Source: Sagittula stellata E-37
Lineage (GTDB): Bacteria; Pseudomonadota; Alphaproteobacteria; Rhodobacterales; Rhodobacteraceae
NCBI RefSeq assembly: GCF_039724765.1
Contig: NZ_CP155729.1
Span: 1,054,001-1,118,000 of the forward strand
Reading direction: 5' to 3'
DNA: 64,000 bases
The notes below the pieces were generated by a model. It ran no database searches and had not been told where the DNA came from. It saw only the letters and a program-made list of their open reading frames with translations. Below are positions 36,810 through 40,388 of the stretch, piece after piece; position 1 is the stretch's first letter; each line of letters begins with the position of its first letter. Position numbers and translations under genes: made by a program.

Positions 36810-39059
36810 CTACTTGTCCCCGAATGACCAATCCGCGTCGGGGTCCGCAAAGGCATTAGGAGCGCCAGCCGCATGGGAGGCATGGTTCGGAGCCGCGAGA
36901 ACTGGGTCCCTCGCCCGGCGCTCGGGTTGCGTGACTGACGGCGCCGTCGGCAGGTCAATGCCCAGACCGTCGGAAGCGGGGTACAGCCGAAGAGTGTCCG
37001 GCGTCTCGTCCACCTCAAACCCGATCAGGTAGCGGTCCTCGAGTTCCGCAATGCGCTCCTTGGAGTAGTCGTCGACGAACAGCCATTGGCGGGCGATGGC
37101 ATTGGCGTTGATCTCGCGGAGGCGGGTCATCGCGTTGAAGATGACTTCCTGGTCGATCTTTTTCTGTGCCGCGACCGACGCGCGGACCTCGCGCACCGCC
37201 AACATCCAGGTCTGTGCACGCTCTCCGTGGAAGCGTTCGAAGACGGAAGGCACCTCGATCCACTTACCGTCCAGTTCCACTGCGATCGCGCCGAGATCCT
37301 CCGAATACCAGCGTACACGGACCTCCTTCTCGGTGTTGTGCATGAACCAGCGGGCGAGCACCTCTGAATGATAGCGAATGCCCAGAACCGAGATGCCCTT
37401 CTTGGACACCGTCCGTTTCAGCCGGGTGCCGAGTGCCCTGCGCCGCAGCCCGAGTGCGGGCATCGGCGCGACGCCATACCGCCCGACGAGCCGGTTCCAG
37501 CAATTGAGGGGCGTTTCCCCGTTCAGGCCTGCATGCGGGCGGCGATGGTACACGTCGACGACCCAGCGAACCAGTGCCTCACTGAGTTCCTCGGCCGTCA
37601 ATGCTGCCCGGGCTTCGGAGTCGTAGTCGCCCTTGACGACGGTGTTGCTGAAGGTTCTCCCAGTGAGCCGTCCGATGAAGTTGTTCGCCATCGTTCCGAA
37701 CAGGCGCTCGATCCGCGCCCGGAACTCCGGCATCCCGGCCGGGCCGGCGTCGATATTGATCCCGAGATCGGTCGCGCCGACCCTTGTGTCGAAGTCGATG
37801 AAGGCGGAGCCGCAATCGGTGACGATGAGCTCAGGCGTGCCGGACATGTTCCATGGAGAATGCGCACCAACCGCGTCTGCCCATACCCCCTTGTCGCGCA
37901 CGATCATGTCCATCGTCTGCATTGCGCTGCGCTTGCTGGGCGATCGTGAGAGCTTCATGGCTACGACACAACGAGTTGTGCAGCACTCAGCAGCAGTCAG
38001 GAACCAGCGTGCCATCTTGCCCTCTTCCAGGCCGAGGCTAGACTTCTCCTCCTGGCTCAATATCGACCAGATGCCCGATTCCGCCAACGGGGCCATGACA
38101 TCGACCTGCCATTCGTCCATCTCGACGCGTTCGAACGGACGAGTGAGTTCCAGCCCCTTTCCGACCGGCGCATTGCGCTTGCGGGCTTCTTCCAGTCCGA
38201 AACGCGCTATGTCCACCTCGAAGGGGTCGAGCTTCCTTCCCGCGAGGTGGATCGTCTCGCGAGACGGCGTCACAAGGGGCCTCGTGCTCTCGCCAAGCTT
38301 CTCACCGGCCGCTTCCCGTTTTCGCAGCTCTTGGCGACGAAGGTTTTCGGCGATGAAGGCGTTGTCTACGTCTTCTACCACTTGAGCGACAGACGGTTGC
38401 TCCATGGTGAGATAATTGCGGACCGTTCGGGCCAAAAGCGCAAGTTCGTCCGGACCAAGGCGACGGCTGCGACGACCTTGACCGCCCTGATCATATAGGG
38501 CCGCCATACCATCCCGGCGAAAGGCGGCAACGCGTTTCAAGAGTCGGCTCGCGCTGATCTTCGTGGGAACGATCATGGTATTGCCGTGTGCCGGGAACGG
38601 GTCGCCTTCGCTGGGCACAGAAAGGTACTTGCTGGCGCGGAACTTGATCTCCGCCAAGGCGGCCTTTACGGACTCCTCGGTTCGTTTGACCTTACCCTCG
38701 GCTTCCATTTCCAGGAATGCACGGATCAAGGACTCGTGGTATTTGGCTTTCTGTTGCTGCTTCAACGAAAGCGCGGACAGTTCTTGTGTCGGGAGATTCA
38801 GCCTGCGTTTCGCATGATCCGGAAGGAATGCGTCACGCCGGTGTTCGATCTCTCCTGAATTGACCCGCTGCGAGAGCATTGCGTGCGTGAAGGATTCCGC
38901 GACACTCAGGAGGTCAGTTCTCCGAAAGGTGTATCCGAATTCGTTGCTCTCAGATGGACGGTAAGAGATGCCATCGATGATTACCTCATCATATTCGCCG
39001 AAGGCAAAACGCGACCTTGTTGCAGAAAGAGGCTCCGGGATTCGCTTCGTGAAGCCCAT
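36810..39059 (-). CDS. TnsB/Mu-like DDE transposase, 5' end replaced by IS sequence
   Basis: A 749-residue transposase of the TnsB/TniA/Mu A type, which joins transposon ends to target DNA. It has helical DNA-binding domains (LPTQELSALSLKQQQKAKYH, SASRLLKRVAAFRRDGMAAL) and an RNase-H core with DDE residues in VEMDEWQVD (about 316), VTDCGSAFID (about 412) and FRARIERLFGTM (about 450); the last two are the usual ~35 apart. A Mu-type C-terminal beta domain follows (RYGVAPMPAL, RVRWYSEDLGAIAV). The first ~15 codons (MGFTKRIPEPLSATR) come from an IS end, so the native N-terminus is lost. No TnsC/TniB or TniQ gene is nearby; it is probably a relic. Confidence 0.85.
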   Translation of the reverse strand: MGFTKRIPEPLSATRSRFAFGEYDEVIIDGISYRPSESNEFGYTFRRTDLLSVAESFTHAMLSQRVNSGEIEHRRDAFLPDHAKRRLNLPTQELSALSLKQQQKAKYHESLIRAFLEMEAEGKVKRTEESVKAALAEIKFRASKYLSVPSEGDPFPAHGNTMIVPTKISASRLLKRVAAFRRDGMAALYDQGGQGRRSRRLGPDELALLARTVRNYLTMEQPSVAQVVEDVDNAFIAENLRRQELRKREAAGEKLGESTRPLVTPSRETIHLAGRKLDPFEVDIARFGLEEARKRNAPVGKGLELTRPFERVEMDEWQVDVMAPLAESGIWSILSQEEKSSLGLEEGKMARWFLTAAECCTTRCVVAMKLSRSPSKRSAMQTMDMIVRDKGVWADAVGAHSPWNMSGTPELIVTDCGSAFIDFDTRVGATDLGINIDAGPAGMPEFRARIERLFGTMANNFIGRLTGRTFSNTVVKGDYDSEARAALTAEELSEALVRWVVDVYHRRPHAGLNGETPLNCWNRLVGRYGVAPMPALGLRRRALGTRLKRTVSKKGISVLGIRYHSEVLARWFMHNTEKEVRVRWYSEDLGAIAVELDGKWIEVPSVFERFHGERAQTWMLAVREVRASVAAQKKIDQEVIFNAMTRLREINANAIARQWLFVDDYSKERIAELEDRYLIGFEVDETPDTLRLYPASDGLGIDLPTAPSVTQPERRARDPVLAAPNHASHAAGAPNAFADPDADWSFGDK

Positions 39060-39368
39060 GTAGTAGCGGGCTTTTATGAGCAGACCGCCGAAGCCGCCCT
39101 GCAAGACCGCCAACTGGCCCGCGTATGATCAGGCGCTGAAGCGGCGCGGATCGATGACGGTCCGGTTCGATCACTCGATGCAATGGGAAGCGATGCCTTC
39201 CGGGCGTCGCGGCCGCCAGCAGGCGTACAGCGATGCGGCGATCCAGGCCTGTCTCACCCACAAGGTTCTGCTCTGCCTGCCCATCCGTCAGACGACAGGG
39301 GTCGTGGCGAGCTTGCTGGAGCTGTGCAGCCTCGGCTGGGCCGTGCCCGACTTCAGCACCCTGTCACG

Positions 39369-39412
39369 TCCACTGCCCGGCAGGCGCATCTGCAAGACGC
39401 TGCCGAGAGGGG
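39369..39412 (-). repeat. Short insert A (44 bp)
   Basis: In reverse complement it reads CCCCTCTCGGCAGCGTCTTG...CCTGCCGGGCAGTGGA. Removing it joins ctgtcacg to ccagaaga, giving LSR-QKT as expected for the transposase. A CGGCAG/CTGCCG stem lies inside. Confidence 0.8.
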
Positions 39413-39569
39413 CCAGAAGACATCGGACGCGACCATCCCGTATCGCGGATCCAAGGGGCCGTTGCACCTGCGCGTGGACAACACCGACGTCAAGGTGGAA
39501 GGCGAAGGCGGGTGGCACACGCGCAAGCATGGCGGCTCGAAACGGCGCGTGTGGCGCAAGATCCTCATC

Positions 39570-39609
39570 CCTTGCCCGGCAGGGTCGTGCGTCGCATGAT
39601 CCCGAGAGG
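39570..39609 (-). repeat. Short insert C (40 bp)
   Basis: In reverse complement it starts CCTCTCGGGATCATGCG and ends CCTGCCGGGCAAGG. Removing it joins atcctcatc to gccgtcgac (WRKILI-AVDEE), restoring frame. Confidence 0.8.
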
Positions 39610-39669
39610 GCCGTCGACGAGGAAACATTGGAGATCCGGGCTATCGAGACCACCTCCAGCACTGTCGGC

Positions 39670-39710
39670 CCCTCTCGGCAGCATGCTGCGCATGCGCCTG
39701 CCGGGCAGTG
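39670..39710 (+). repeat. Short insert B (41 bp)
   Basis: CCCTCTCGGCAGCATGCTGC...CCTGCCGGGCAGTG. Nearly identical to insert A but in the opposite orientation. Removing it joins gtcggc to gacgcgccg (STVG-DAPML). Confidence 0.8.
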
Positions 39711-39842
39711 GACGCGCCGATGCTGCCCGACCCGCTCTGCCAGATCCCGGCGAACGAGGAGATCGCCAAGGTGACGGCCGACGGCGCATATGACACGCGT
39801 GCCTGCCATGACGCCATCGCGGCCCGCGGAGCAGCCGCGTTC

Positions 39843-39877
39843 GGGCATTCTCTCGGACCAATGGCGTTCATGCCCTC
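39843..39877. repeat. Short insert E (35 bp, divergent)
   Basis: Starts GGGCATTCTCTCGG and ends ATGCCCTC, with terminal GGGCAT/ATGCCC inverted repeats. It shares only CTCTCGG with the others. Removal joins gcgttc to actccgccc (AAAF-TPPRRN) in frame. Its exact ends are uncertain by a few bases. Confidence 0.6.
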
Positions 39878-40026
39878 ACTCCGCCCCGCCGGAATGCCCG
39901 GCCCTTGAAGCCGGACACGGCAGGGGCCCGCGCACGCAACGAAATCCTACGAACATCGAAGCTCTTGGGCCGTGCGCTCCGGCGGAACTGGAGCGGGGAC
40001 CACCGGCGGAGCGGGGGCGAGACGAA

Positions 40027-40069
40027 CCCTCTCGGGATGTTCCCTAAGAAAACACCCTGCCGGGCAATG
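40027..40069 (+). repeat. Short insert D (43 bp)
   Basis: CCCTCTCGGGATGTTCCC...CCTGCCGGGCAATG. Same orientation as B. Removal gives GAG ACG AAA ATG AAC (ETKMNC), restoring the conserved C-terminal block of the transposase. Confidence 0.8.
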
Positions 40070-40270
40070 AATGAACTGCGTGAAGCCGCTCGGCCAGCGG
40101 CCGATGTCGCGGGACTTCGACCGCCAGGTTGCCGAAGTCCGGATTCGCGCGGCGGTCCTGAACCGCTTCACCGCAATCGCCATCCCGGTCACCGTGGCTG
40201 CGGGATAAGCGTTTCCGGAGAAGGGGAACTGCGGCCATCAGCCGTTTTGTGCAACAGCGCCGTGCCTGTG

Positions 40271-40388
40271 TCAGATGTTGCCCGCGGCGAGGTCGGCCTG
40301 CGCCTTTGCGAGCGCATCCGAAAGCGTCGCGACGATGCGGTCGATGTCGGTGCGGCGATCGGCAACGTTGACGCGGTCAGGATCGTAT
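40271..40388 (-). pseudogene. 3' fragment of an aminotransferase/decarboxylase-like gene
   Basis: A minus-strand frame ending at the TGA of 40271-40273 reads DPDRVNVADRRTDIDRIVAT then LSDALAKAQADLAAGNI. This resembles the C-terminal end of PLP-dependent aminotransferases or decarboxylases. In-frame sequence upstream meets a stop within three codons and runs into the LysR gene, so only about 37 codons remain. The IS right end is 9 bp past its stop. Family assignment is tentative. Confidence 0.4.

Follow-up and report, generated by a model that had tools for sequence, protein, structure and literature searches.

The window analysed here is a stretch of 64,000 nucleotides (64 kb) of the genome of Sagittula stellata E-37. 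At positions 39076–40208 of its forward strand it carries an interrupted IS903-like transposase gene of the IS5 family, which is recognized by the Pfam domain DDE_Tnp_1_5 in its first piece and by tblastn with ISPko1. Directly next to the interrupted IS, at 36810–39113 on the reverse strand, lies a gene of 766 aa that contains a Mu transposase C-terminal domain (PF09299). Over the end positions tried for the IS, none gave a target duplication of 8 or 9 bp. The initial annotation of this DNA had described five short inserts in the transposase gene, four of them with shared ends and two of these in each orientation, and a covariance model run over the 64-kb window detects exactly these four (53–66 bits). 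When all five pieces are omitted (39371–39411, 39570–39609, 39670–39710, 39843–39877 and 40027–40069), 310 codons are open where 309 had been claimed, a length equal to the 310 aa of the intact ISPko1 transposase.

Copy 1 (39371–39411, 41 nt; model R1, 60.5 bits) lies on the reverse strand, antisense to the gene, and splits DFSTLSR from RQKT; in the alignment to ISPko1 the frame is continuous without it, and its insertion site is also used in locus L075. The 44 bp given earlier for this insert (39369–39412) are corrected to 41 nt on the combined strength of model and ISPko1 alignment, because removal of 44 nt also keeps the frame and the frame alone does not decide. Copy 2, equally antisense on the reverse strand, extends over 39570–39610 (41 nt) according to the model (R1, 59.0 bits) and over 40 nt (39570–39609) according to the frame, its removal as 41 instead of 40 nt leading to a stop after 191 codons; it splits KILI from (A)VDEE, and the same or a neighbouring position is occupied in L111 and L203. 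Copy 3 (39670–39710, 41 nt, forward strand, sense to the gene; R1, 66.2 bits) splits TVG from DAP at a site common to L013, L075, L080, L104, L160 and L240. Copy 5 (40027–40069, 43 nt, likewise forward and sense; R1, 53.3 bits) is inserted just before KMNC, at a site common to L009, L012, L172, L240, L251 and Phaeobacter inhibens. The remaining piece of 35 nt (39843–39877, no strand assigned) had been counted as a fifth insert. It does break the frame, a stop occurring after 236 codons when it is left in, but its membership of the family is unconfirmed: it scores 0.6 bits with the model, and shuffled sequences align equally well in 58 of 2000 cases with one consensus and in 495 and 369 of 2000 with two others. 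It is possibly a decayed copy.

The four recognized inserts thus occupy positions that are the same as, or neighbouring to, those used at other loci. An intact relative with these sequences at identical positions had been named as an argument against mobility; similar elements at the same or neighbouring positions do exist, but the genes that contain them are interrupted too, and insert-free relatives such as ISPko1 are intact genes. A segment of L013 (2745–3507) is 99.9% identical to 39588–40350 of the window and starts in the middle of the insert 2 hairpin, a rearrangement that seems to have broken at the hairpin tip. A second IS903-like gene with five elements, resembling that of the window, is present on a plasmid of Leisingera sp. 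NJS201 (L286).

Fold, distribution and target of the hairpin element

The element starts with CCCTCTC and ends with TGCCGGGCARYG, and between these ends lies an inner stem of variable sequence and conserved pairing. In the typical 41-nt form, CCC and TCTC precede the inner stem, which is followed by TGCC, GGG and CARYG; CCC pairs with GGG in an outer stem of 3 bp, and TCTC stands opposite TGCC in a 4x4 internal loop. Lengths range from 33 to 47 nt, those of 41, 43 and 37 nt being the most frequent. Among 23 seed sequences, 92.4% of the pair cells are standard compared with 35.5–43.1% in slid controls, and there are 45 double-change cells against 11.8 after shuffling, a number matched by none of 500 shuffles. 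That the inner stem varies in sequence and length and yet stays paired suggests that folding matters, while the folds of single copies are not exceptional (n = 5, z -1.94 to 0.39). Of 720 stem cells in 80 distinct copies of 41 nt, each from a distinct site, 678 form Watson-Crick pairs, and the mismatches include 12 G-T and 15 A-C; with these two about equal and no G-U excess, nothing indicates that either strand is maintained as RNA. A comparison of positions 39000–40300 of the window with Rfam returned a microRNA model as its best hit (28.6 of 168 bits) and no RNA family match. Nine element sequences recur letter for letter, each at two or more distinct sites. At L184 (position 2952) and L115 (1293) the ends are kept and the inner hairpin is deleted, and element hairpins seem prone to such internal deletion. 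A subtype with a GTG...CAC pair is concentrated at IS427 site 639 and IS903 site LLI|DST.

In the genome of the window (G000, 5.29 Mb), the model gives 42 hits at E<=1 and 38 at E<=3e-4, the four weaker ones being left out of the classification. A genome search for the exact-end pattern, proposed in the initial annotation, returned 17 matches against none for a reversed control. The 38 copies are distributed over the window (4), L013 (2), the L009/L010/L012/L015/L018 group (15), L054 (1), L011 (2), L014 (1), L016 (3), L017 (2), L020 (2), L021 (1), a fourth site in L012 (1), L052 (1), L053 (1), L055 (1) and L019 (1). An IS gene lies at or beside the element for 35 of the 38 by tool evidence and for the remaining three, two in L017 and one in L019, by eye, from a reading of frames. 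L017 has HTH_Tnp_1 just upstream, and L019 contains a short IS481-like start with a TPP-enzyme gene on one side and a GntR gene on the other; L019 resembles L092, of which a piece scores best with the NCBIfam IS481 model, below the whole-protein cut-off of that model.

In three genomes of the same genus, 34 (G001), 40 (G003) and 0 (G002) copies are present at E<=0.01. A survey of 41 genomes found the element in 15, all within the 25 genomes of the same family and in none of the 16 from other families of the class. Across the family, in which the element is dispersed among marine bacteria, hits at E<=1e-4 occur in 92 of 296 genomes; with 21 candidates scored per genome, the copy numbers of this survey are lower bounds. 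In named genomes, the exact-end scan produced at least 120 stretches; the 80 listed are mostly from Rhodobacteraceae or the Roseobacter group, and the outliers among the matches listed (Sanguibacter, Methanolinea, Rhizobium) include some that are perhaps due to chance. Matches also occur in nine viral contigs. Those in two of the viral contigs, L262 and L266, score low (37.5 and 33.5 bits) and are perhaps due to chance; they lie in a frame that looks DNA methyltransferase-like by eye.

For the analysis of the target, 81 of 328 model hits were set aside because of decayed ends or short flanks, and the remaining 247 represent 170 sites that are distinct by flank. Their consensus is approximately C^GAYG (C 78%, G 78%, A 69%, Y 85%, G 56%), which places the insertion 3' of CRTC on the opposite strand. 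Both element orientations occur, also within one gene. The initial annotation had suggested that the inserts could be minimal non-autonomous mobile elements, and this is supported by the 170 distinct sites in many genera and by alignment with insert-free relatives, present in the loci at hand for 104 of the 164 sites with enough flank. The net length difference at these 104 empty sites is 0 in 65, +1 in 26, -1 in 9, -2 in 3 and +2 in 1, and insertion is without target duplication. The clearest single case is L011, in which an insert-free copy adjoins a copy with two clean 41-bp inserts. In a frame-restoration test, which is blurred by antisense frames, the frame is restored by exact removal at 77 sites, by +1 at 55, by -1 at 53 and with the insert kept at 35; when gaps of at least 3 residues are excluded, and with the same blurring, the corresponding numbers are 47, 27, 24 and 1. 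Codon-bias scoring did not identify the coding frame. The qualifier non-autonomous is supported by absence, as neither an enzyme nor an autonomous form appears in the data searched.

Residence in IS genes and hot sites

By protein similarity, the 170 sites form 63 groups. With one open frame per group scanned against Pfam, 13 groups (99 sites) are transposases, two of which (4 sites) have representatives just below the Pfam cut-off, and a further 35 sites match the transposase pieces labelled in this way. In a stricter test, 129 of 170 sites match a labelled transposase piece from another locus, compared with 8 of 340 control C^GAYG sites of the same loci located more than 1.5 kb from any element (Fisher p 6e-73) and 6 of 340 located more than 2.5 kb away; because the transposase library was built from element flanks (99 sites), the comparison favours sites over controls, and a few pieces of DNA are entered twice, as different loci. 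The clustering of copies in IS elements, raised as a question in the initial annotation, is thereby established for most sites. The IS types, partly by our own assignment, are taken to be IS5/IS903, IS5/IS427, IS3, IS21, IS66, IS1182, IS256, IS630 and IS110. Of 50 single open frames beside elements, Pfam labels 16 as transposase and 2, beside L019, as another gene, and gives nothing for 32; many of the scanned pieces are probably in the wrong frame. Among the 36 sites without label, 8 belong to groups that read as IS genes by eye. In L066 and L155 the elements lie in a non-IS setting that is toxin-antitoxin gene-like by eye.

This residence could in principle reflect survivorship: insertion would occur anywhere at C^GAYG, and copies would persist mainly in dispensable ISs and be multiplied by IS transposition. 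IS copies are indeed dispensable and multicopy, and insert-bearing copies do spread. One Sagittula IS is present in five full copies and one partial copy that have their insert positions in common as far as each reaches, and two of them, at different loci, are identical over 309 codons. Two of the four copies of this IS (the L018 group) that have both ends are flanked by 9-bp target duplications with one mismatch, as judged by eye after the start of the IS was shifted by 1 bp, and the other two have none; the duplications indicate that at least some of these copies moved with the inserts aboard, probably in trans. However, under pure survivorship intergenic DNA and accessory genes should retain copies as well, which is at odds with the excess over control sites, and the recurrence of hot sites across genera also speaks against it. 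We therefore regard survivorship on its own as unlikely.

Hot sites are evident in IS427-like copies, in which 36 of 39 mapped inserts lie at five positions and 3 elsewhere, with L075 and L164 in this set being one and the same DNA; each of these five positions is always occupied in a single orientation, in different genera. For IS903-like copies, 61 inserts were mapped to 14 positions, 19 of them to LLI|DST; the mapping includes repeated copies of the same IS and a few inserts counted twice at neighbouring phases. LLI|DST and TA|DGAYD presumably correspond to codons of catalytic Asp residues of the DDE family. Inserts are more scattered in two IS3 groups, with 27 at 22 positions and 23 at 18. 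A target matrix built from other families (a 4-bit motif) did not rank the hot positions highest. Some elements at the same site differ by 1 in 40 although the IS copies that carry them are only about 60% alike and share no tract, and these insertions therefore look younger than the split of the ISs, which speaks against vertical inheritance. Recombination accounts for part of the shared sites but not for those of several cross-genus pairs. The shared insert of L080 lies inside a recombined stretch. In this locus (G001:C14:2000-8000), two IS903-like copies form a mosaic and are near-identical over about 220 bp, a sign of gene conversion.

Fate of the interrupted transposases

The effect of insertion can best be followed on plasmids of P. 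inhibens, which carry an ISPko1-related IS with one 41-bp insert. Compared with the insert-free ISPko1, pS is about 0.19, pN 0.023-0.036 and w 0.11-0.17, which indicates that the P. inhibens gene was under selection until lately. Twelve copies from 10 strains were compared, chosen from 39 records (60 of 86 listed) to include shorter spans. They differ by 7 synonymous and 31 nonsynonymous changes (site-corrected ratio 1.44), part of which could be alignment errors next to gaps. Three different deletions that destroy the frame, of 10, 13 or 14 bp, are distributed over 5 of the 12 copies. The insert is identical in all 12, and its continued presence led us to reject frequent scarless removal. Selection before and drift after insertion indicate that the insert kills the transposase in P. 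inhibens. Drift is also apparent in the six Sagittula copies of the L018 group, with pairwise w of 0.67-1.24 among them and of 0.21-0.36 to the insert-free L113 (G003). Among the 40 of 96 candidates scored in G000, the closest other relatives of this group are fragments that are about 75-78% identical, including an insert-free one on C5. In these two lineages, the best testable ones, the substitution patterns show a loss of selection on the transposase after insertion. Three IS427-like copies of G001 that share two insert sites (L074, L075 and L082) have w of 0.17-0.24 (0.14 under an alternative alignment) and pS of 0.22-0.48. Such low w is not expected for genes dead since a shared insertion, and could be explained by separate insertion at hot sites or by recombination, as in L080.

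The low w of these IS427-like copies could also be taken to mean that interrupted transposases work, the insert being removed from the message as a mini-intron or skipped in translation. Mitochondrial byp elements and T4 gene 60 are precedents for bypass. The lesion counts point in the same direction: the alignments of the 82 insert-bearing copies show 137 inserts, compared with 17 frame changes elsewhere in the gene and 58 stops, the 24 insert-free copies contain 10 frame changes and 11 stops, and no other lesion is seen in 46 of 82 insert-bearing and 13 of 24 insert-free copies, although 12 loci doubled as references in these counts, which favours the insert-bearing side. Against this, both orientations occur within one gene and two unrelated RNA motifs would need removal, the P. 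inhibens copies drift and acquire frame-breaking deletions after insertion, the L018 group drifts as well, and the stems have no G-U excess. Bypass or splicing was set aside because of the inserts in both orientations and the drift in the two lineages, and we hold it to be highly improbable. The presence of several copies in one gene before other damage suggests that, once an IS is reached, insertion is fast relative to decay.

Proposed movement of the element and its relation to known systems

Taken together, we assign a probability of about 0.6 to the interpretation that the inserts are one family of miniature mobile DNA hairpins, moved as a folded strand by a trans-acting enzyme, which silence the IS copies they enter. 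In this model, the element would move as a folded single DNA strand. The enzyme that excises or copies it would read the outer stem, the internal loop and the 3' tail, with the inner part needed only as a stem, and would act in trans, encoded by none of the copies seen. IS copies would be inactivated, in many cases at codons that are conserved or even catalytic, and the broken copies could still spread through transposition in trans, recombination and plasmid transfer. Stems that vary but remain paired suggest that a folded DNA strand is what is recognized, in the manner of REP or IS200-type movement, and insertion 3' of CRTC on the opposite strand would suit the logic of HUH (Y1-type) transposition; covariation, empty sites and C^GAYG would agree with a possible single-strand working of HUH (Y1/Y2) enzymes.

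A more specific proposal is that the element is of REP type and is mobilised by a Y1 transposase (RAYT) with its gene elsewhere. The single hairpin, the unpaired tail, the lack of target duplication and the position 3' of CRTC on the other strand are in its favour, and CGTC-tagged REP families without a known transposase have been described from Alphaproteobacteria (PMC3733652). However, the Y1 domain (PF01797) has no match in G000 and is absent from the element-rich G001 and G005, and among the 296 genomes elements are found in 13 of 31 with Y1 and in 79 of 265 without (Fisher p 0.22). A Y1 gene of G103 lies about 600 bp from an element, on one side only (L182, taken as the same contig). A RAYT as the moving enzyme is hence distinctly improbable.

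The inserts might instead represent solitary ends of IS91 or Helitron-like (Y2) elements, since a hairpin, a short 3' tail, the lack of duplication and fixed 3' target bases form a layout that we take to fit such elements. Elements are present in 14 of 32 genomes with Y2 (PF04986) and in 78 of 264 without (p 0.11), and Y2 is found in 5 of the 9 genomes with at least 9 copies compared with 27 of the 287 others (p 0.001), an excess that was chosen after the fact and is confounded by IS load. Moreover, the element-rich G001, G080, G090 and G305 lack a Y2 match and, in the loci read by eye, no copy with these ends surrounds a Y2 gene, and this origin is quite unlikely. More generally, neither G000 nor, by eye, the 1.49 Mb of loci contained a longer copy with the same ends around a gene. 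The 16 left ends of one type (GGGA/GTGA) in G000 are all part of known copies; of the 20 right ends, 4 stand alone, compared with 2 for a control pattern. Among the 82 unpaired ends listed for the 1.49 Mb of loci, inspection by eye showed mostly known copies detected once more, broken copies or chance matches. In G240, two IS91-type (Y2) genes (C7:268176-268794 and C8:276489-277113) are each split in two, with 37 nt between the matching pieces, and might hold short elements.

A stronger form of the preferred interpretation would make the element an IS-silencing agent, with a trans-acting system that would insert hairpins into conserved and often catalytic codons of IS genes, several of them per gene and within a short time. 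This is speculative and, on the whole, doubtful. If true, mobile elements would be shut off with the host genome undamaged, and the system would be either a host defence or a parasite of transposons. Should insertion indeed be directed at IS genes, transposons would be subject to a kind of control that is new. With these inserts, some of the frame-broken transposases in genomes of the Roseobacter group are not the product of random decay, and the natural pairs of insertion and empty site offer a route to the DNA-inserting enzyme.

Small palindromic repeats are common in bacteria, and the families described, in the accounts drawn on here, are mostly intergenic and best known with a Y1 partner. 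The hairpin element, in contrast, precisely interrupts what are mostly genes of other mobile elements, from about ten IS families. It differs from a MITE of a DDE transposon in that the outer match spans only 3 bp and there is no target duplication (0 net in 65 of 104). The small dispersed repeats of cyanobacteria are very small structured mobile repeats and resemble it in size and structure, in different hosts. Rickettsia palindromic elements are likewise located inside protein genes, of many kinds and with frames kept, whereas the hairpin element breaks mostly IS genes. Literature searches returned no earlier description of it, and a search with the end sequences only unrelated human papers. 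Further parallels are the REPINs, REP doublets that adjoin RAYT genes and form non-autonomous hairpin DNA mobilised by RAYTs, with folded-strand transposition proposed (PMC3116915); the hairpin element is single and G000 has no Y1 gene. The CGTC- and GTAG-tagged REPs (Di Nocera 2013; PMC3733652) are single hairpins of 20-40 bp with heterogeneous stems, some of them intragenic. The CGTC families are presented there as typical of Alphaproteobacteria and without a dedicated transposase, as having stems of 8-9 bp with AT pairs first, loops of 4-5 bases and tails that are mostly CCA, and as lying mostly downstream of or between genes (PMC3733652). A small single hairpin and a heterogeneous stem are shared, and neither kind of element is known to have a dedicated transposase. 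The hairpin element differs in its 3-bp outer stem, 4x4 internal loop and CARYG tail, in its location mostly in IS genes, and in that CRTC is here the reverse of the target consensus GAYG, varies by site and is not a tag of the element itself. In all, the hairpin element works like a REP-type element and lacks the features that define CGTC REPs and RAYT-moved REPs, and the surprising part is its residence in IS genes, with hot sites at catalytic codons.
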